A stretch of DNA of 33,760 nt from a virus, in IMG/VR virus record IMGVR_UViG_3300007513_000115, positions 1-33,760 of that record. One strand, written 5' to 3'. Below, in pieces: positions 6,537 through 19,419 of this stretch. Position 1 is the first letter of the stretch. Every line of letters begins with the position of its first letter. Made by a program: the position numbers and the translations under genes. Under the pieces are notes generated by a model, which worked only from the letters and a program-made list of their open reading frames with translations, was not told the origin of the DNA and searched no databases.

Positions 6537-6768
6537 ACTTCTTCTTTGAGGCTTTTTGCATTTCGTCGCTCTCAAATTCAAATTGTTTCTGTAATCTTCG
6601 TAGAAACCATCTTCTGATTTGGATTGAAAGATTGTATGCCTCTGTGAAGCTCCAACCTCCATGATACTTTAAAGCAAATATCTCCTCATAAACGTTTTCA
6701 ATATATTCGTTACCCAGGCCAAAAGAACTCGCCCGTAATGGGCACCTCCGTTTCCATTGTATGACCAC
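6535..6768 (-). CDS. Tail-assembly-chaperone-like ORF overlapping gp26-like gene; start unclear
   Basis: The recognisable part is residues 20-77 (NEYIENVYEEIF, then GGWSFTEAYNLSIQIRRWF), a small helical protein type with an EAYNL...RRWF signature that is common next to tape measure genes. The only start-like codon upstream is GTG at 6768. It has no SD, and the first 19 residues it adds look unlike a protein. The ORF overlaps the end of the gp26-like gene by 59 nt in the +1 frame and has no ATG. It may therefore be made by ribosomal frameshifting near the upstream stop (GGG TAA C, 6710-6715), giving a fused chaperone as in the G/GT genes of other phages. The C-terminus is charged (SDEMQKASKKK). 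Confidence 0.6.
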   Translation of the reverse strand: MVIQWKRRCPLRASSFGLGNEYIENVYEEIFALKYHGGWSFTEAYNLSIQIRRWFLRRLQKQFEFESDEMQKASKKK

Positions 6769-7561
6769 AATGATGGCATTCGGCGTCCTGTTTGAAGACT
6801 ACGTTGGGCATTACCCTCTTATAGGCGTCTCTCATGATTTTAGAATCTGATGCAGGAAGTACGTCAACAAACCTATTAATCTGATCGGGGTCGGTAACTC
6901 CATTCGCGCTGAAAATCATCATTTTCATCATGTCTGTTAGTCCCGAATCTGGAAGTCCATTTCTTTCCTTCATCTCTCTCGTCTTTTCTAACTTCAATTC
7001 GTCGGTACCGGTAAGGGCACGTATCTCTACTAGAATTTTAGTTTTAGGTAACTCCACTTCTGCAGTGCCATTTTCTGTGAATTTAACATCGTCAGCTTCA
7101 TCAATGGATGTATAACATTCATTGTACTTGGATAAATCAAATTGAAATTCAAAATCTTGATTGCAGTTCTGACACGCAACTTCTGCATCATAAGCAGCAC
7201 CATAACCAGTAATACGAGCGGCATACATTAGTGCGTTTTTATCACCGATCAACAAACTGTCTGATACTACATTCTCTTCTATAATGATACTATCTAGCAT
7301 CTTGTTTATCGCTACCCCTTTTCTTAGAAGGGACTGAGAAGACAAAATGTCTTCTTCCTTTGCTGTCATGTGACGGATTTCGACCGTTTCTTTACCGTGT
7401 AAAGGATGACCAACAGGGTAGAGTCTCCCCTTTGAGGGGAGGTCCACAATTTCTGTTGGTATCGAAAAATTTAGTAAAGATCCGCCCGAAGGCTTTTCCA
7501 TGACTGGATCTGGTGGGGATGCTGAATGTTTTCTTCTTGCTTCGTTTCTCTTATTCGACAA
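6710..7561 (-). CDS. T4 gp26-like baseplate/tail assembly protein with two CxxC pairs
   Basis: This 283-residue protein resembles the T4 baseplate protein family (gp26-type). Visible features are IVDLPSKGRLYP at 38-49, HMTAKEEDILSS at 64-75, LLIGDKNALMYAARITGYG at 103-121, and two zinc-ribbon-like cysteine pairs at 130/133 and 262/265. It ends in FFWPG. The start is a TTG at 7561 with SD GAGAGGAA about 5 nt upstream; the next Met is residue 21. The protein is likely cytoplasmic and acts in tail or baseplate assembly rather than as a major virion part. It is followed by an overlapping ORF in the +1 frame, the arrangement expected of a tail chaperone pair. Confidence 0.75.
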   Translation of the reverse strand: MSNKRNEARRKHSASPPDPVMEKPSGGSLLNFSIPTEIVDLPSKGRLYPVGHPLHGKETVEIRHMTAKEEDILSSQSLLRKGVAINKMLDSIIIEENVVSDSLLIGDKNALMYAARITGYGAAYDAEVACQNCNQDFEFQFDLSKYNECYTSIDEADDVKFTENGTAEVELPKTKILVEIRALTGTDELKLEKTREMKERNGLPDSGLTDMMKMMIFSANGVTDPDQINRFVDVLPASDSKIMRDAYKRVMPNVVFKQDAECHHCGHTMETEVPITGEFFWPG

Positions 7562-7630: not shown

Positions 7631-8269
7631 TTACCTTTTTTTCAGCCCTCTGTTCAGCTTTGAGCGTGCGACGGTCAGACCTGATTGTGAGATTGATCCG
7701 TCATCGAGCCCTGGAGAGAATCCAGCCTTGCCTGCGCCGACGTTTACATCGCCGACGCCAGATACGGTTGCCCAATCATATCTGAATGTGACTTCAAGAT
7801 TGATTAGATCATCCGACTCATAATCGGCCTCGTCGAAGTTGACGGACTTGATCCAGGGATTCCAAAAAGCCCACTCTTCTACGATCTCGCCCTCGGCATC
7901 GAGTTGTGCCATAAACAGCTTGCCGCCGACAGATTGGACAGCTGCTTTCTTTGTTATGGTCTTAGGGCTTTCCAGGTTTATTCCATCAGGAGTAACATAC
8001 CCACTGTTGTCTAATAGCTTCATCAGCGTTTTCGATGCATCCGGATGCAAAGGATCTGCTATAGTTACACTCATCTCGTCATACTCTACTCTACCCGGAA
8101 AGTAAAACTTATAATTTAAAAATACGTGCTCTGCCTCGGTGACAGTTATCGTCGGTCGGCTGGCCTTCTTGAGTAACCAGTAAGGGATTCCGTTAAATCC
8201 CATAATCCATCTGAACTTTCTCTTAGGTTCAATTGAATGATCGCTCCAAAATTTGCGATTCGCTACCAT
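7631..8269 (-). CDS. Tail tube protein (gp19-like)
   Basis: This 212-residue protein matches the T4-like tube subunit. The segment EAEHVFLNYKFYFPGRVEYD at 46-65 and the following IADPLHPDASKTLMKLLDNSG are hallmarks of the family. The segment AFWNPWIKSVNFDEADY is typical of the second half of the tube fold. It is longer than T4 gp19 (163 residues) because of a Gly-rich, then basic, C-terminal tail of about 40 residues. SD AGGAGG lies 8 nt before the ATG. It directly follows the sheath gene, as in T4. The subunits should stack as hexameric rings inside the sheath. Confidence 0.9.
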   Translation of the reverse strand: MVANRKFWSDHSIEPKRKFRWIMGFNGIPYWLLKKASRPTITVTEAEHVFLNYKFYFPGRVEYDEMSVTIADPLHPDASKTLMKLLDNSGYVTPDGINLESPKTITKKAAVQSVGGKLFMAQLDAEGEIVEEWAFWNPWIKSVNFDEADYESDDLINLEVTFRYDWATVSGVGDVNVGAGKAGFSPGLDDGSISQSGLTVARSKLNRGLKKR

Positions 8270-8334: not shown

Positions 8335-9414
8335 TTAATCATCAAAAGCCGCGCCCTGATTCGTAACAACAAAATCAATCGCAATGAATTCCAAAGCCTT
8401 CGCTGGCTTTATGAAAATCTTAGCATACATGATATTTCTGTCAACTAGGTCAGGAGTTGTTGTAGTCTCATCAAGAACAACCTTATACTCCTGAACCCCA
8501 AAACCAGACTTCACCTGCTGAAGGAATGGTTCTACCTGACCTCGGAACCTATTCCAAGTTGCCTGCACATTCTGTTCAAACAGCAGTCTTGAGGCAATTC
8601 TGGAAATTTCCTTCTTTAGGAACACCATTAGTCTTCTGACATTGATTCTGTCAAGTGCTGAAGGCGTTGCCTGTAGCGTCTTTTGTCCGAAAATCACAAT
8701 CCCCTCTGCCGGGAACGATGCTATCGGATTAACTTGGTGCTCATATAGATCGTCTCTATCCTTAGCAGACAATCTTTGCGATACCGCCAGTACCGGCACA
8801 CCAGCGGAGCCTTCACTTAGACCGCCGCGGGTGAACCCTGCAGGAGCGAACCAAAGTTCGCCGATTCTCTGGGTTGATGCCATTGTGCCGAGTGCTACAA
8901 CTGACGGTGGTACCCAAACCTGTTGTGCGTTAATCTCATCGTAGATCTTTACCCACGGGAAGTAAGCACAGCCGTAACTCGTGTTTAGCCCTCTCTGTGA
9001 CAGAGTGTTAACACAGTCTGTAACATTATTATTTGTTATTCTTGTCTTAAAGTTGGCGGTTGTTTCTGTTGATGGTTGATACCCGCCCTGCTCCAAATCG
9101 ATAACTGCAAGAGCGTCTCCACGGTCCTCGCAGACCCTCAATACGTGGTCTGTGATGAGAGGTTCGCGGACTCCGGGGACTGCCATTAGGTTGATATCTA
9201 CAACCTCTGGTTCCGCCACAGAATCGATGGCGCGCTTCAATGAGTTTGCCGCGTAGTTATTCTTATACGATACTCCGGAAGCACCGACAACGTGATTACC
9301 AAAAGGTGCCCTCTCTTTGATGTTCAATCCGTCGAAACCACCATACATCGGTGAAGTAAACTTGGTAAATCCGGTCTTAATCAATTCCGTCCAAGAACCA
9401 GACCCCGCAGACAT
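8335..9414 (-). CDS. Tail sheath protein, C-terminal part
   Basis: These 359 residues carry the C-terminal sheath domain: VWVPPSVVALGTMASTQR, ELWFAPAGFTRGG, and then NVRRLMVFLKKEISRIASRL, the conserved sheath region that contributes the inter-subunit contacts. The ATG at 9414 has no SD. Reading upstream in the same frame, the codons stay open through 9636 up to a TAG at 9637-9639 that ends the N-terminal part. The intervening 74 codons (beginning RTPTSTRFDESYLD) read like normal sheath sequence. This is therefore the second half of one 1028-codon sheath gene (11421-8335) rather than a separate gene. The stop is TAA. Confidence 0.9.
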   Translation of the reverse strand: MSAGSGSWTELIKTGFTKFTSPMYGGFDGLNIKERAPFGNHVVGASGVSYKNNYAANSLKRAIDSVAEPEVVDINLMAVPGVREPLITDHVLRVCEDRGDALAVIDLEQGGYQPSTETTANFKTRITNNNVTDCVNTLSQRGLNTSYGCAYFPWVKIYDEINAQQVWVPPSVVALGTMASTQRIGELWFAPAGFTRGGLSEGSAGVPVLAVSQRLSAKDRDDLYEHQVNPIASFPAEGIVIFGQKTLQATPSALDRINVRRLMVFLKKEISRIASRLLFEQNVQATWNRFRGQVEPFLQQVKSGFGVQEYKVVLDETTTTPDLVDRNIMYAKIFIKPAKALEFIAIDFVVTNQGAAFDD

Positions 9415-9636
9415 TCTAAGTGCAGTATAAGAAGTAGCTGCTTTTCTAGAACCGGACTGGTAGTACGCTGTCTTAACGCTAGTGGCCGCCGAGTTGGCTG
9501 CGATAACGTCGTCTAGTGTGAATATAAAAGAATATTCAGTACTATTACCTGGGGCGTAGGTATCTGCTGCTATTCCTTGACCACCCCTTACAATATCCAG
9601 ATAGGACTCATCAAATCTAGTACTGGTAGGTGTCCT

Positions 9637-9639
9637 CTA
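9637..9639 (-). other. In-frame amber (TAG) codon inside the sheath gene
   Basis: The coding strand reads AGC ACC TAG AGG ACA. The TAG is codon 595 of an otherwise open 1028-codon sheath frame. No SD or good start lies just downstream, so without readthrough, suppression or a sequence error the C-terminal sheath domain would not be made. Confidence 0.9.
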
Positions 9640-11421
9640 GGTGCTGACTCCGAAATGAGCCATCTTGTCGCTTCTTAGTCCCTCTGCAGAAGAAGACCTT
9701 CTTAGGGGAAGTGACGGGAACACAACCGATGCAGTGGCTCCCAAACTCACTCCCGCGATTTGTGGATAAGAAGCAGACACGAATGCCCCGAAGATAGAAC
9801 TTGCCTTGAATGGAACGCCTCCCTCATGAACAGAAGCTGACAGAAATCGGGCGTGTTGGGTGAGCGAGATTGCGCCAGCTGCTAATCCTACCTCTGCCGT
9901 CGTTTTATAATGCACTGTTGCGCCTTGGGGTGCCCCGGCGGAGGCGTCTTCAGCAAAGACTAGTCTCTTATATCTAGGTGGACCGTAGAATCCAAATGGC
10001 AAATATGCCGGATCTGATATTCCTTCTTCCACATCGGAATTTAATTCAATTCTCACAAAACGAGACTGATTCGGCCAAGTACCGTAAGTTCTATATCGCT
10101 TATCTGTTTCATCCCATTCTTGATATTGGTCACCTATCTTTGCACCAATAAAATTATTTGAATTAGGATTCAAATTACATTGACTAAATCTTTCTAAAAC
10201 CTTTCGCTGTCCGTCGTGATCCCTTGTGTATCTCAAAGTGACAGAAAAAGACCCATACGGATCCACATCAGTTGGCGCACGGTGGTCGCTTATCGAAACC
10301 TTAATATTTCGGGAAGCCCATTCACCGTCTTCCAACCCAACGATCCTAAATAATTTTTGTTGTTTTGCTCCATCAAACTTAGTTGTGTTGCTTGAAAGGT
10401 CCTGACCAAAAAACCACCCTGTTTTAGCAGGTTGTGTGCCTATCTGGTTTGAGCCCCAGTTGTGTGCTGAACTTTGCAGCCCAACTATCACTCCATAGAG
10501 AGAATCATCTGCACCCAATTCGCCCTGATGAAGTGTTCCAGATCCGTGTAGATCTTTCGCATGTCTATCAAATGTCTCTCCCAGAAAATACTTTTTCGAG
10601 TCACTGACTGCGCTGCCCATGAGGGTTGGATTTGTATTGAAAACCTTTCTTATATATTTATCGCTGTTTCTGTCAAAGTTGAAAGTGAGTTTTTTACCAA
10701 CATTCGCATTATCGAAAAGGACAGCATTAAATTCCATCGTAGATACATTGCTTGATTTCAGTGCAAGACTATTTCCCGCTAAAGCATTCCCCTTTACCTC
10801 AACATCGTCAGTTTTATAATTTATACCGTCCAATAGTGTTCCCGAAAGCTCGATAGCACCTGCATCGAAATACCAGACAGCGGCGAGAGATCCAGTAGTT
10901 CTTGTTCTGTGCCGGTCACTCCTAGCACCGCGATTTCTCTTGTCTCCAACATATGACCCTTCAAAATCATATTGGTGGGACCCCGAAGTAAACAGGAACA
11001 ACCCAAAAACACCTCCATCTCCAGATGGAGTTACATCACTATTTGCAGCATGAGAATTAGAATGTTTCCACCCTGCTTCACCGCCGGAAACTGCTTCGTC
11101 GTGTGCCTCTCCGAGTACTCGTACCACAGTAACGGGTGCTGAATTCCTCAGATACGCCATAGCAGCATATGCTGCGTATGTAGGGGCAAGATAATTGCCA
11201 TCTCTCCAAACGTCTCCGCCTCTGCCACCGGCAATTGGATTGCCAAATATTTCCACGAATTCACTCATTGACCCAACAGTGACCGGTCTATTGCTGGGTC
11301 CTCTTTCTAGGCGACCAATTATTGCAGGACCGAGAGTGCCGGGGGTGGGTCCGGGTTGTGAGTTATCAATTTCATTAATAAAAACTCCAGGTGAGACGAA
11401 TTTAAATCTATCAACGGACAT
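9637..11421 (-). CDS. Tail sheath protein, N-terminal part (ends at in-frame TAG)
   Basis: This 594-residue section begins with the classic sheath N-terminus (FKFVSPGVFINEID, then GPAIIGRLERGPSNRPV, then SEFVEIFG). Residues 85-105 (YAAYAAMAYLRNSAPVTVVR) are also conserved. About residues 115-480 appear to be inserted, surface-exposed beta domains rich in Gly, Asn and Asp. The conserved core returns near residues 540-594 (PFKASSIFGAFVSASYPQIA). SD AAGGAG precedes the ATG, and a CTATTTA box lies 67 nt upstream. The section ends at a TAG, after which the same frame continues into the C-terminal domain. The full product would be about 1028 residues, against 659 in T4. Contraction of the sheath drives the tube through the host envelope. 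Confidence 0.92.
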   Translation of the reverse strand: MSVDRFKFVSPGVFINEIDNSQPGPTPGTLGPAIIGRLERGPSNRPVTVGSMSEFVEIFGNPIAGGRGGDVWRDGNYLAPTYAAYAAMAYLRNSAPVTVVRVLGEAHDEAVSGGEAGWKHSNSHAANSDVTPSGDGGVFGLFLFTSGSHQYDFEGSYVGDKRNRGARSDRHRTRTTGSLAAVWYFDAGAIELSGTLLDGINYKTDDVEVKGNALAGNSLALKSSNVSTMEFNAVLFDNANVGKKLTFNFDRNSDKYIRKVFNTNPTLMGSAVSDSKKYFLGETFDRHAKDLHGSGTLHQGELGADDSLYGVIVGLQSSAHNWGSNQIGTQPAKTGWFFGQDLSSNTTKFDGAKQQKLFRIVGLEDGEWASRNIKVSISDHRAPTDVDPYGSFSVTLRYTRDHDGQRKVLERFSQCNLNPNSNNFIGAKIGDQYQEWDETDKRYRTYGTWPNQSRFVRIELNSDVEEGISDPAYLPFGFYGPPRYKRLVFAEDASAGAPQGATVHYKTTAEVGLAAGAISLTQHARFLSASVHEGGVPFKASSIFGAFVSASYPQIAGVSLGATASVVFPSLPLRRSSSAEGLRSDKMAHFGVST

Positions 11422-11597: not shown

Positions 11598-14500
11598 TTA
11601 AGAATTAGTTCCCGAACCCGAAAGGTAAGTAACGGTAAGAATGTCATCAGAATCCAATGCAAGACCTTCATGAAGAAGAACCTTGTAAGCATTCGCAGAA
11701 CCAGTCAACAGATGATAATCTGCATTCTGATCGCCGCGGCCTGCGCCGACTTCATCACCAACATGATCTCCGTGCAACAACAAACCATTCAAGTAGACCA
11801 TAAGACTACCGGATTGAGGTTGCGCACCAAGTGATGCAGTCGTATAAGGCGTTGGAACAGCTAAAGTTGCGTACATTCCCTTTGTGGGAGTAGATCCCGA
11901 TATGTTCGAGCCATCAGCTCGGACAAATACATCTTTTCTCCAACCAACACTTAGTCGACCAGAAGTCCAAGTAAGACCACCGTTCGCATCAGTCTTGTTG
12001 ATAACAACATCTGAATTCAACTTTGCCTTAGTTACCGACAGTGCTCCAAGCTTTGCCGTGGTTACTGAAGTGTCTGCAAGGTGGGCGGTAGCAACAGAAC
12101 CAGTCTGTATGTTGTCCACAGTGACAATACCAGTACCGTGAAGTGCATCAATGTAGCCAGAGTCGACGTGGAGTTCTGCCCATTGCAAGGCACTAGTGCC
12201 CAAGTCTCTAGCACTGTCCGAAGACGGAACCAGATCCGAGTCAAAGCGACCTGTAGCGGTAATGGTATCGCCAGTAGCGTTACCAAGATCAACGTTGCCG
12301 TTGAACGTGGCACCAGCTGCAATCGTTAACGTATTACCCGCAATTGCTGAACCGGTAAGTTGACCGGTGGTGCCATAAATGACAGACTTGCCACCGACAA
12401 CGGTTGCAGCAACAGCACCGTCAGTTAAGTTAAGCTCTGCTGCAGTTGCAGACACGAGCGTACCACCGAGTTTGAGACCGTTACTAGCATCATGAGACGC
12501 AATGTTAAAATCATACGCACCGTCCAAGACAGTAATCGTTGACGCCGCAGTGTCAAAAAAGTCGATTACCGTAGTCTCAGTATCATTGATCGCTGCCCTA
12601 AAAAGAACAGCACCATCAGTCGTATCCTTGGTAACGTCTTTAGCTCTAGCAACGATTGAACCGTATTCTCTTTGCCTAGCTCCGGAATCCATACCTGAAA
12701 AGTAAAGACCACCTAAGTAATCATCATCAGCAGGTGAATTACTAGCATTGTGCAACACAAAGCTTGGTATGTTACTTCCCGTAACAAGACCGCCAGCACC
12801 GTTGTTAGCTGCCAAAGTCGACAACCTAAGACCATTATCGGCATCATGAGTCAACGTGATATCCTTATCTGCACCGAAGTGAATTACGGATGAGTCCGAT
12901 AACAACATGATGTCATCGCCGATGACTGCATCCCCAGCTACACTCAAACCACCGTCGGTCTGTAAAGAACCGTCAGTTGTAGAAGTGGCTGCTGTGGTGT
13001 CATCTGTCTTAAGAATGCCCGAGAAGGTACCAGTTGTACCAGCAACAGCGGCAAAGGTACCAGCAGCTGCCGAGTTTGCACCAATAGTGGTACCATCAAT
13101 AGCACCACCGTCGATGTCAACAGCGTCAAGATATCCTGTACCGTCAATATAAAGGTCCTTCCACTGCGCGTCAGAGGCACCAAGATCGTTCTTATTGGTC
13201 ACCGATGGCACCAGATTTGAAATGAAGCCAGCAACAGCATTAATAGTACTTGTGGCTCCCCCAAACACAATATTAGCTGATGAAGTAAAAGAAGTTGCAT
13301 TGATTTGTTTCGCAACAACCTTGTCAGTTGTAGTGGTGTGGAACGTACCCATGCCACCAGAAACTAGTGTCGTGCCGGTCACTGAGTCGCCGGTCACTTC
13401 TGATGAAGCAACAACGGAAGTTGCATTAACGTCTTTGATAACGCCTTTATCCGATGTCATTGTGTGGAACGTAGCCGCTGAACCGGAGACCGATGTCGAG
13501 CCAACCACTGTCGCAGCAGAAACGCCCTTTGTCACTGAAACGTGTCCAGCGTCTACCTTAAGAGCTTGAATCAGCGAACCAGATATGGATCCAGTAACGC
13601 CAAGTCGAGGACCTATGATATTACCAACCTTTACCAATCTATCGGTCGAAGAACCAGACTGTAAAGTCATACCGGACTGTCCATCAACATTGAAGACAAG
13701 AGAGTCACCGTCGCGAGTAGTAGTGCCCAATGTCAATGAAAAGAGTGGACTAGATCCTGTCCCCTCGACGCCGACTTTACCACCGAGCTGAAAACCAGCA
13801 CCGACGTAATCACCTGCTACAGAACCAGAGACACCAGCAATAATCAAGTTATCCTGGATCTCCAAGGAGTCCTTGGTAACCGTTCTTGATACAATAGTAT
13901 CAACGTCAAGAGACGTAATCTTTGCGTAAGAAGCAGTAAGTGCCGTGATGTTCGCCTCGGTAACTGCACTGTTAGTACCAAGAGTTATGCCATCAATTGC
14001 GCCACCATTAATATCAACAGTAGTAAGCGTCGAAGTACCAGTCGCAGTGATTGTATCAATGTATCCAGTATCGATATGGGCTTCAGCCCATTGCTTAGCA
14101 CTAGTGCCCAAGTCTCTGGCACTATCAGTAGATGGAATCAAATCCGAATCAAATTGACCTGTACAAGTAATGGTGTCCGAAGTAGCATTACCAAGATCAA
14201 CATCACCAGTTGCACTCAGAGTGGTAACTGTTGCGGCTGCAGCACTGCTTGCACCAATGGTTGTTCCATCAATAGCACCGGCATTAATATCAACAGTAGC
14301 AAGCGTTGAAGTGCCTGTTACCGTGACATCGCCGCCGACGCCGACATTGTCGCTAAAAGACCCGGACTCTGCAAAGAGAGTGTTCCACTGTAAGGACGTA
14401 GATCCCAAATCACTTGCGCCGTCGGTCTTTGGAATTACATCCGAAGCCACATAACCGGTTACGGTAATGTCATCTCCGGTGGCGTTACCCAAAGTAACTG

Positions 14501-15689
14501 CTCCATCTAAAGTTGTTGCACCAGCAACCCCTAGGGATCCTAAAAGATGGGAAGATCCCGAAACATAAACTGACTTTTGAAAACTAAACGATTGATCCTG
14601 TGCTAACATAGCACTTTCGATTGAACCTGAGCCGATGTTGTCTCTTGTGATGCCACCGACTGCTATAAGTTTTGTTCCTATTCTTGTCCTAGCCATAATA
14701 GATGTACCTCCTGAAGCACTGCTTCCCCCGGACATGCCGGAAAGGGTTATGTTTGTGCCGACTGTTGCTGACATAGCTTGGTTGCCCGATGTTCCATCGG
14801 TACTGTTCGTTAAACTAATCGTACTGTCACTAACTGATGCACTTATCTGTATTGTTAAGTTGTTAATTACCTCACCTAAATAGGTCGCCAACTGAGCTGT
14901 CGTCATTGTTCCTGTCATATCCGCATTTGCGCCTCGACTTGCATACGAAGACTGGTTTGGAGTTCTCATGTGCGCTGTGACGCCGCCGGTTCCCGCATAA
15001 GGAGCCGTTGTCATGAAGGTCGTGCCAACCGAAGACCAAGTCGTTGAACCACTATTTATAAGATGAACACCCATAACGGCAGCTGAAGTAGTAGCCCTAC
15101 TATCAACTATCTTAAGATAGCTATTAGTGATAGACAAAGTTCCCATAGTAATCTCGCCAGCAGTACTAGCAGCTTCGAAAATAGATTCCACAGTATTCAG
15201 TGGTGTGTCTAGATTACTTACTGAGTTAATGTTAACCGAATAATCACCCGCACTGTTCTTTCTACCATAACTACCCAATCCGGAAGTAGCAGAGAATCCT
15301 GAAGACATATTAACAAAGTCTATCACAATTCCGTCATACCCGGGTTGCGTAAATTTTAGTACAGCTGGATGGGTCCCGTCAGACACAAACTTTGTGCGCC
15401 AATCCGCAAGAGACTGGCTGTCACTATCAAAACTAAAGTAGAAAAAAGGTACCTTGCTACCAACACCTGTTAAGTATACCGGTACATAATTTTCTGCATT
15501 ACCGGCGACGGTGTTATTCGACGCCGCCGTACCAGACAAAAAAGCATTGTTCTGATGTGTGTTCGAAACACTCGTAATAAAACCAAGTTTTATTTCAGAT
15601 CCAACAGCATCTTGTCCGTCGTTAATGGTTATAGCATCATATTGGTCTGGTAATCCGCTAAAGGCAATTGTGCCTGTTGCTGAAGCCAT
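11598..15689 (-). CDS. Large repeat-rich fibre (tail or neck fibre/adhesin)
   Basis: This 1363-residue protein is rich in Gly, Ser, Thr and Ala, as in trimeric phage fibres. Residues 1-330 form a distinct N-terminal region, probably the virion-attachment part. The middle has four imperfect copies of an SDLxPSTDSARDLGTSxxQW module (near residues 412-441, 510-543, 821-855 and 1148-1180). Around them lie three copies of VDINGGAIDGTTIGANSA and three of NATGDTITATG. A C-terminal beta domain of about 95 residues (SLMVYLNGLLLHGD, then LDSDDILTVTYLSG) resembles the one at the end of the gp15-like protein ending at 16835. SD CAGGAGGAA is strong. The gene lies between neck and sheath genes, so a neck whisker or a side tail fibre are both possible. 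Confidence 0.83.
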   Translation of the reverse strand: MASATGTIAFSGLPDQYDAITINDGQDAVGSEIKLGFITSVSNTHQNNAFLSGTAASNNTVAGNAENYVPVYLTGVGSKVPFFYFSFDSDSQSLADWRTKFVSDGTHPAVLKFTQPGYDGIVIDFVNMSSGFSATSGLGSYGRKNSAGDYSVNINSVSNLDTPLNTVESIFEAASTAGEITMGTLSITNSYLKIVDSRATTSAAVMGVHLINSGSTTWSSVGTTFMTTAPYAGTGGVTAHMRTPNQSSYASRGANADMTGTMTTAQLATYLGEVINNLTIQISASVSDSTISLTNSTDGTSGNQAMSATVGTNITLSGMSGGSSASGGTSIMARTRIGTKLIAVGGITRDNIGSGSIESAMLAQDQSFSFQKSVYVSGSSHLLGSLGVAGATTLDGAVTLGNATGDDITVTGYVASDVIPKTDGASDLGSTSLQWNTLFAESGSFSDNVGVGGDVTVTGTSTLATVDINAGAIDGTTIGASSAAAATVTTLSATGDVDLGNATSDTITCTGQFDSDLIPSTDSARDLGTSAKQWAEAHIDTGYIDTITATGTSTLTTVDINGGAIDGITLGTNSAVTEANITALTASYAKITSLDVDTIVSRTVTKDSLEIQDNLIIAGVSGSVAGDYVGAGFQLGGKVGVEGTGSSPLFSLTLGTTTRDGDSLVFNVDGQSGMTLQSGSSTDRLVKVGNIIGPRLGVTGSISGSLIQALKVDAGHVSVTKGVSAATVVGSTSVSGSAATFHTMTSDKGVIKDVNATSVVASSEVTGDSVTGTTLVSGGMGTFHTTTTDKVVAKQINATSFTSSANIVFGGATSTINAVAGFISNLVPSVTNKNDLGASDAQWKDLYIDGTGYLDAVDIDGGAIDGTTIGANSAAAGTFAAVAGTTGTFSGILKTDDTTAATSTTDGSLQTDGGLSVAGDAVIGDDIMLLSDSSVIHFGADKDITLTHDADNGLRLSTLAANNGAGGLVTGSNIPSFVLHNASNSPADDDYLGGLYFSGMDSGARQREYGSIVARAKDVTKDTTDGAVLFRAAINDTETTVIDFFDTAASTITVLDGAYDFNIASHDASNGLKLGGTLVSATAAELNLTDGAVAATVVGGKSVIYGTTGQLTGSAIAGNTLTIAAGATFNGNVDLGNATGDTITATGRFDSDLVPSSDSARDLGTSALQWAELHVDSGYIDALHGTGIVTVDNIQTGSVATAHLADTSVTTAKLGALSVTKAKLNSDVVINKTDANGGLTWTSGRLSVGWRKDVFVRADGSNISGSTPTKGMYATLAVPTPYTTASLGAQPQSGSLMVYLNGLLLHGDHVGDEVGAGRGDQNADYHLLTGSANAYKVLLHEGLALDSDDILTVTYLSGSGTNS
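12150..14452 (-). repeat. Dispersed fibre repeats (four DLGTSxxQW modules)
   Basis: Four modules inside the fibre gene lie at about 14365-14452, 14060-14160, 13125-13225 and 12150-12245. The second and fourth are close at DNA level too, sharing the run ACTAGTGCCCAAGTCTCT. This makes recombination between them and length variation of the fibre plausible. Confidence 0.8.
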
Positions 15690-16834: not shown

Positions 16835-18073
16835 TCAAGCTTTGACATAACTTATTATAAGAGTTTCATCAGATTCTGGAGGGTCCTCCGAAGTGAACTC
16901 AATGGTGGTGTCATTCGTAACAGTATAATCGTTATCAGCCCCCAATTGCATCAGCACACCATCTCTAAACACCATTTGAGTGCCGATGTGGAATGCTTCC
17001 GAAACAGTGAATGTTGTTCTAGATCCGTTTGGAGTTTCCTGGAAACTCTGATTGGGCGAATAATTCGTTGTTGTGACTGTTCCTGCCGTTGTGGTTGTTG
17101 TGGTCGTCGTACTTCCTCCTCCACCTGTGCTCTCTGCCCCTCTATCAAAAACAAATGGAGTGATTACCTGATCAGGCTCTCCAATAGGGACAAGTTTTGT
17201 AATTCCTGCGAGTCCGTAAAACCTTCCTATCTCTGTTTCGGGAGAATCGCCAAAAATTATTCTTTCTCTTGGTATTTTTATATCAACTGCGTTCTCTCTT
17301 ATCGAATATATCGGTTGAGACTGGTTTTTACCCTCCCCTATCAAATAGGCCAGGACTTTTATTTCTATTGTCGTTTCCAGCTGTCTCTCTTTGGATGTAA
17401 AAGAAGCGAAATTGTTATTTTGTGAGAAATCTTGCTGTATAAATCCCTCATATCTGTGTCCATACTTAGAGATCAAAATATAATTAACCCCACCAGGCTT
17501 TGTCAAAAAAGGAGTTATTAATTGATTCATTTGCTGTTGATATTCTGTACGTAAAGTGATCTTATAAGACATTTCCACATAAACAGGCATCGGAATGCTT
17601 ATAGTTTCATATACTATTTTGTTGTTGCGCATTCCTGGAAAGTTGACTTGTCCCCTCTTTCGCTGTGCGTCGGCATTTGCGAAATTAGACGATTTATCTT
17701 GTTTGATTCTTCTTGCGATCTTTATAGAGCCACCTTTCTCATCATCGTGAGGAACAACGTTACCCCAAACTGCGCCCTTCTTGCTTAAATCCTTCACTAT
17801 GTTGGTTCTTTCCACTGCAATGATCGGAAGTATTAAAGCACCAGTGGCATCCCTGAAATATACGTCTCTTTTCGCCGCCAAACTTCTTTCTGGGGATACC
17901 CAAGTAAGCTTTACAGGCTCGAACCCATTCGGTGTCATTGTGTGTAAATTTAAATCTTTAACATAGTCCAACATTGCCGCGTCAACATTTTCAATATCTG
18001 AAGCTCCGAAGCGAATTGGGAATTCCTGGTCCGAAGGGACGCCTCCAAGCATGAAATCATTTATTTTATGCAT
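16835..18073 (-). CDS. gp15-like tail sheath terminator paralogue with extra C-terminal domain
   Basis: I place the start at ATG 18073 (412 residues), which overlaps the upstream stop by 8 nt. A TTG at 18106 would add 11 residues and a longer overlap. The core (about residues 10-300) parallels T4 gp15-type sheath stabilisers: VKLTWVSPERS, then LPIIAVERTNIVKDLSKKG, then ISIPMPVYVEMSYKITLRTE with a QQQMNQLITPFL helix. It is roughly 60% identical by eye to the preceding gene product over the core. A Gly4-Ser-Thr8 linker begins at 317. Residues 337-412 are an added beta domain (TQMVFRDGVLMQLGADNDY, then DETLIISYVKA) also seen at the fibre C-terminus. The likely site is the top of the tail or the neck. 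Confidence 0.72.
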   Translation of the reverse strand: MHKINDFMLGGVPSDQEFPIRFGASDIENVDAAMLDYVKDLNLHTMTPNGFEPVKLTWVSPERSLAAKRDVYFRDATGALILPIIAVERTNIVKDLSKKGAVWGNVVPHDDEKGGSIKIARRIKQDKSSNFANADAQRKRGQVNFPGMRNNKIVYETISIPMPVYVEMSYKITLRTEYQQQMNQLITPFLTKPGGVNYILISKYGHRYEGFIQQDFSQNNNFASFTSKERQLETTIEIKVLAYLIGEGKNQSQPIYSIRENAVDIKIPRERIIFGDSPETEIGRFYGLAGITKLVPIGEPDQVITPFVFDRGAESTGGGGSTTTTTTTTAGTVTTTNYSPNQSFQETPNGSRTTFTVSEAFHIGTQMVFRDGVLMQLGADNDYTVTNDTTIEFTSEDPPESDETLIISYVKA

Positions 18074-18941
18074 CGGACCAACCCGCCGGAAGGTTCTGAC
18101 GACCAATAAATTCGCCTATTTCTCTCTCCGCTTCATCTTGAGTCATCACTCTTTCTCTGGGTATTTTAAAATCTACAGGATTTTCCCTAATTGTTATATT
18201 TGGACCCAATTCATCCTTCCCCCCGCCTATCAAATGACCTAAAACTTCAATATTCATCTTGGTTTCGAACTTCCTCTCTTCATTTGAAAAAGAACTCAAA
18301 TTATTGTTGTGAGAGAAGTCCTGTTGTATAAACCCCTCATATCTATGATGTTCATCGCTTATTATAATATAGTTTATACCCCCTGGAGAGGTTATAAACG
18401 GCACCATTATCTCGTTCATTTGTTGTTGATATTCTGTTCTGATCGTTATCTCATAATTAACAGTTATATATACCGGAAGTGGTATTGTTATGGATTCATA
18501 TACCACCTTTTTGTTAGCAGTTGGAAAGTTTGGTTGCCCCCTTTTTCTTTGTGCGTCAGCATTTGCGAAATTAGACGTTTTATCCTGCTTAATCCTTCTT
18601 GCTACTAATATGACACCACCCTTCTCATCAGATTCTGGTACCAAAGCTGCCTGAATCGTTCCCTTTTTAGAAGGATCTTTCACAAGACTTGTTCTCTCGA
18701 CGGTCATTAGCGGAAGAACCAAAGACCCGTCTTTGTCCCTAACTCTAGAGTCTCTCTTGCTTTGAAAAACTCTTTCAGCAGATGTCCAGATAACAGGAAG
18801 AGGGGTCCATCCATTATTTGTGGTTGTGTGTAAATTAAGCCCCTCTAAATACGAAAGCATCGCAGTATCAATATTCTCTATTCTAGACGGAGGGAATGGA
18901 ATTTCTTTTAATTTTTTAATATGGCCATCATTATCCGGCAT
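18066..18941 (-). CDS. gp15-like tail sheath terminator/stabiliser, first copy
   Basis: The ATG at 18941 is preferred (291 residues) because GAGAGGGA sits at SD distance; a GTG at 18968 lies within that region. The gene overlaps the upstream stop by 11 nt. The pattern is TPLPVIWTSAERVF, LPLMTVERTSLVKDPSKKG, ITIPLPVYITVNYEITIRTE, QQQMNEIMVPFITSPGG, then RYEGFIQQDFSHNNNLSSF. T4 gp15-type proteins share the order of an aged-sheath capping beta domain followed by a QQM-type helix. They form a ring that ends the tail and meets the neck. It lacks the C-terminal domain of its downstream paralogue. Equivalence to gp15 is by pattern and position. Confidence 0.7.
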   Translation of the reverse strand: MPDNDGHIKKLKEIPFPPSRIENIDTAMLSYLEGLNLHTTTNNGWTPLPVIWTSAERVFQSKRDSRVRDKDGSLVLPLMTVERTSLVKDPSKKGTIQAALVPESDEKGGVILVARRIKQDKTSNFANADAQRKRGQPNFPTANKKVVYESITIPLPVYITVNYEITIRTEYQQQMNEIMVPFITSPGGINYIIISDEHHRYEGFIQQDFSHNNNLSSFSNEERKFETKMNIEVLGHLIGGGKDELGPNITIRENPVDFKIPRERVMTQDEAEREIGEFIGRQNLPAGWSDA

Positions 18942-19419
18942 TGAAGAGTCCCTCTCTTGCCTTGACACATTCGGCGGTTACTTCCATTTTGTGTCCAACT
19001 TGACCGAATATCTGTTTTGGTTCGTTAAGAGTCACTATTTCGTAGTATTCTTCACCGTACAAAACAAAATCACCCTCTCGGACGAACAAATTCTGATCTT
19101 CTGTTAATCTTCTTTTGTGAAAATGAACAGTTATTTTTGATAACCGGTCCACTCCCAAATTTGTAGTTTCTGTTTCATATCCCTGCCACTCGACAAGAGC
19201 ATATACCCTTATTGGGTTTAAAAAGTTTTTATGAATTGCCTCACCATAAACGGGATGAAAGTCGGTGTCCTCGATGCTAATTGGATAATACAAGATTTGC
19301 TGGCCAATGACCTTTTCGACCAATTCATCATTTATTTGTTTTACCAGGTCTCTTTCTTTTTTTCCCAGAAAGAGTGGTGGAGGAGCATCCTGGGGCTGCT
19401 TCCATTTATTGTCTGCCAT
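18931..19419 (-). CDS. Neck/head-closure protein (probable gp14-type role)
   Basis: This 162-residue protein starts MADNKWKQPQDAPPPLFLGK. A helix (ERDLVKQINDELVEKVIG) is followed by a beta-rich domain (QILYYPISIEDTDFHPVYGE, then IRVYALVEWQGYE, then FVLYGEEYYEIVTL). The small beta-barrel style and the position between the connector-like and gp15-like genes fit a head-completion or neck protein. The SD is weak (GTGGGG), and the start lies 6 nt after the stop of the previous gene, so translation is probably coupled. The 3' end overlaps the next gene. The exact T4 counterpart is uncertain. Confidence 0.62.
   Translation of the reverse strand: MADNKWKQPQDAPPPLFLGKKERDLVKQINDELVEKVIGQQILYYPISIEDTDFHPVYGEAIHKNFLNPIRVYALVEWQGYETETTNLGVDRLSKITVHFHKRRLTEDQNLFVREGDFVLYGEEYYEIVTLNEPKQIFGQVGHKMEVTAECVKAREGLFNAG

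Follow-up and report, generated by a model that had tools for sequence, protein, structure and literature searches.

Why does a gene for a virion structural protein contain an amber codon in the midst of a reading frame that stays open on both sides of it? The window analyzed here is a stretch of 33,760 bases, and the gene in question, a tail sheath (gp18-like) gene of 1029 codons counting an internal TAG and a terminal TAA, occupies positions 8335–11421 on its minus strand. Translation of the minus strand over 11421–9190 gave 594 sense codons (9640–11421), led by an ATG at 11421 with an AGGAG ribosome-binding site upstream, then TAG as codon 595 (9637–9639), and the frame remained open beyond it. 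The N-terminal sheath ORF from 11421 to 9637 ending in TAG, as described in the original prediction, was thereby confirmed. The open frame past the stop was confirmed as well, but not the length of 74 codons assigned to it: the TAG is followed by 433 sense codons and a TAA at 8335 (8335–9636), and 74 is the number of codons that precede the first in-frame Met (9412–9414). This Met, which begins a 359-codon ORF, had been placed 75 codons from the stop and described as lacking an SD; consistent with this, no ribosome-binding site was seen in the sequence upstream of it.

Both halves of the gene matched the PHROG tail sheath profile phrog_23 collinearly, at profile positions 23–159 and then 183–469 (E-values of 2.5e-9 and 3.3e-60 for the N- and C-terminal parts, respectively), and the part after the TAG aligned with residues 341–653 of T4 gp18 (PDB match, E 5.6e-41). 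A profile match that spans the N- and C-terminal parts is the mark of a T4-like tail sheath, and the gene also adjoins that of the tail tube (7631–8269), with a baseplate hub match at 6710–7561. The neighboring genes form a T4-like structural module, i.e., tail tube, baseplate hub and wedge, head-tail adaptor, major head, protease, portal, and large terminase. Thus, the collinear match of both halves and the tail, head, and terminase neighbors are what the window sheath has in common with the T4 gp18 family, whereas it differs from T4 gp18 itself in being longer (~1028 residues compared to 659), in having hypervariable blocks, and in bearing an internal TAG. Most likely, the sheath gene is otherwise normal and comes from an uncultured marine T4-like myovirus. 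Two blocks of the gene, 10700–11060 and 9735–10000 (approximately codons 121–233 and 474–563), differ from close relatives much more strongly than the remainder of the gene does, reaching a peak of 23 amino acid differences in 30 codons; these are probably exposed inserted domains that are exchanged by recombination or are under diversifying selection.

When IMG/VR was searched with the downstream part of the sheath gene, at least 594 relatives were found, and the analysis continued with the best 80. Five of the IMG/VR relatives are close to the window in DNA sequence (93–95% identity in the second part of the gene, 86% in most of the first), and all five have TAC (Tyr) at the exact codon where the window has TAG, one base away. 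No stop was present at this site in any of the 79 relatives aligned there (from the best 80 of at least 594); the residues found were Y (28), T (27), S (9), G (5), N (4), H (3), Q (1), and V (1), with a gap in one. Among the same best 80 of at least 594, the sheath frame was open over 952–1131 codons in all 62 relatives whose fetched DNA contains the whole frame, and tblastn showed the relatives' sheath as one continuous gene with a terminal stop only. A chance juxtaposition of two ORFs was rejected, the gene being continuous in relatives, and homologues that encode the C-terminal domain as a separate SD-led gene were looked for and none was found.

To the constraint on each side of the TAG, dN/dS was applied as a measure. 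Codons 596–1029 gave values of 0.087 and 0.081 against two close relatives, and the alignable conserved blocks before the TAG gave 0.085 (codons 1–120) and 0.064 (codons 230–485). Codons 596–736, which include the 74 before Met 9414, gave a value of ~0.10. Constraint after the TAG (dN/dS of about 0.08–0.10) is therefore as strict as before it, which indicates that in-frame translation of the 3' part has persisted over almost the whole period of divergence, either ending very recently or continuing today. A recent nonsense change, a contig error, and full suppression are all compatible with this result, whereas an old truncation is not.

These results suggest that the TAG is very probably an isolated nonsense substitution without programmed function, due either to a contig error or to a defective allele of recent origin. 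A single third-position change, C to G, would convert the Tyr codon TAC into TAG; either this base would be miscalled in the assembled contig, or the contig would have captured a newly arisen defective allele or genome, one with no working sheath unless helped. Four options had been listed in the original prediction, and the comparison with relatives favors two of them jointly, sequencing error and recent nonsense mutation, while programmed readthrough and a suppressor tRNA found no support. A precedent for a contig error of the nonsense kind in such data is given by one relative, L049, which has an internal stop 12 bases from its contig end where L050, 99.65% identical to it, has a sense codon; judged from this pair of sequences, the nonsense codon of L049 is probably false. 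An isolated change is also favored by the intact state of the remaining window genes for which relatives have homologues. On the other side, apart from the TAG the contig looks clean, the genes shared with relatives having no frameshifts. Beside the TAG, six differences are clustered within codons 594–600. A consensus of mixed alleles, as this cluster would suggest, was considered and rejected, since a scan statistic gave P 0.13, short of significance. A near-identical strain covering the site was searched for and none was found, although such records may have been masked in this search; IMG/VR pattern searches for TAG in the sheath motif yielded no homologous contig, and the phage collection held no DNA-level match to the window. 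The sole IMG/VR pattern match for the TAG motif had no sheath homology and was set aside as a chance match.

A real TAG could be tolerated if an amber-suppressor tRNA, supplied by the host or by the rest of the phage genome, inserted Tyr or another residue. The range of residues accepted at this site in relatives means that many suppressors could work, the downstream constraint is preserved, and the window is a fragment (33.8 kb) of a phage genome; even so, we consider suppression unlikely given how TAG is used elsewhere in the window. Across 33 minus-strand genes of the window (10,814 codons), the sheath TAG is the one internal TAG, and there is no internal TAA or TGA. The terminators of these genes are TAA (21), TAG (6), and TGA (5), with one gene running off the window without a stop. 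All six TAG-ended genes that had been noted earlier (2309, 16236, 23643, 26768, 32084, and 33116) are present. In a comparison that took in two relatives and left out 2309, both relatives had TAG in the identical position for 23643, 26768, and 32084, the relatives' TAG lay one codon away for 16236, and in both TAA stood in place of TAG for 33116. That the TAG terminators coincide with the relatives' stops indicates that TAG functions as a terminator in this lineage, and the earlier view that TAG is not globally reassigned holds.

The search for tRNA genes likewise argues against suppression. None was found within the 33,760-base window, and the tRNA model, run on nine relative records, found 17 tRNA genes in six of them (Arg, Met, Ile, Thr, Leu, Lys, and Pro), no CUA anticodon being among them; a close relative of 190 kb has tRNA-Arg and tRNA-Met. 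The check for an amber-suppressor tRNA that had been proposed was thus negative over the scope of this genome fragment and nine relatives. Phages in which TAG is recoded (table 15, e.g., some Crassvirales; PMC11210395, PMC9523058) resemble the window in having an in-frame TAG within a gene. They are recognized by many in-frame TAGs and by genes that are fragmented under table 11, whereas the window has a single internal TAG, uses TAG as a normal terminator, and yielded no suppressor tRNA. Of the phages for which use of table 15 is predicted, only about half have a suppressor tRNA gene (PMC11210395). The more specific version, with a TAG that is fixed in the phage population and decoded as an amino acid in a host that has a natural amber suppressor, would make an essential structural gene reliant on host suppression, and it appears more doubtful still.

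Programmed leaky termination, which would yield a short sheath protein alongside the full-length one, is highly improbable. It would account for a downstream frame that is open and constrained, but sites of programmed readthrough are expected to be conserved, and this stop recurs in none of the aligned relatives; in addition, the gene is whole in the relatives that are 93–95% identical here, and in the RNA surrounding the stop and following it, stability did not exceed that of shuffled sequences (z = +0.52). That the C-terminal part is a separate subunit started at ATG 9414 is the least credible reading, for although an ORF does begin there, the ATG has no ribosome-binding site and lies far from the stop, the constraint already covers codons 596–736, and no relative with the whole frame has a split gene.

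If the isolated nonsense substitution were real rather than a contig error, translation under the standard code would end at residue 594, and with the 433 residues lost the sheath would be without its entire conserved C-terminal part. The original prediction held that the C-terminal domain is needed and that a plain truncation would be lethal. This has to be qualified, since the sheath protein of phage FV3 could still self-assemble when as many as 100 residues had been removed from its C terminus (PMC6357053). Modest truncation is thus tolerated by recombinant sheath protein, but the loss here would be far larger, and a phage truncated in this way would be expected to be non-infectious. Should the TAG be both real and fixed, the phage could make an essential virion protein only with the aid of amber suppression. 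More generally, when one in-frame stop turns up in a phage contig from a metagenome, relatives are intact, and no suppressor tRNA is found, the best assumption is an isolated nonsense change or a contig error.

Three further observations concern the surroundings of the sheath gene and its relatives. The gene beside it (11598–15689) encodes 1363 amino acids, has no PHROG match, and is unmatched over its first third in relatives that are otherwise ~95% identical. Two adjacent genes at 16835–18106 and 18066–18968, also without a PHROG match, resemble diverged tandem duplicates, each matching the other's homologue in relatives at ~59% amino acid identity. Lastly, the genome-contig search found one sheath relative, in the 2.85 Mb chromosome of a WOR-3 MAG (CP070664.1), which has a homologous sheath and tail module with 57% amino acid identity in the C-terminal part of the sheath and no stop in the aligned sheath; this locus could be a prophage, a clue to the host, or a binning error.
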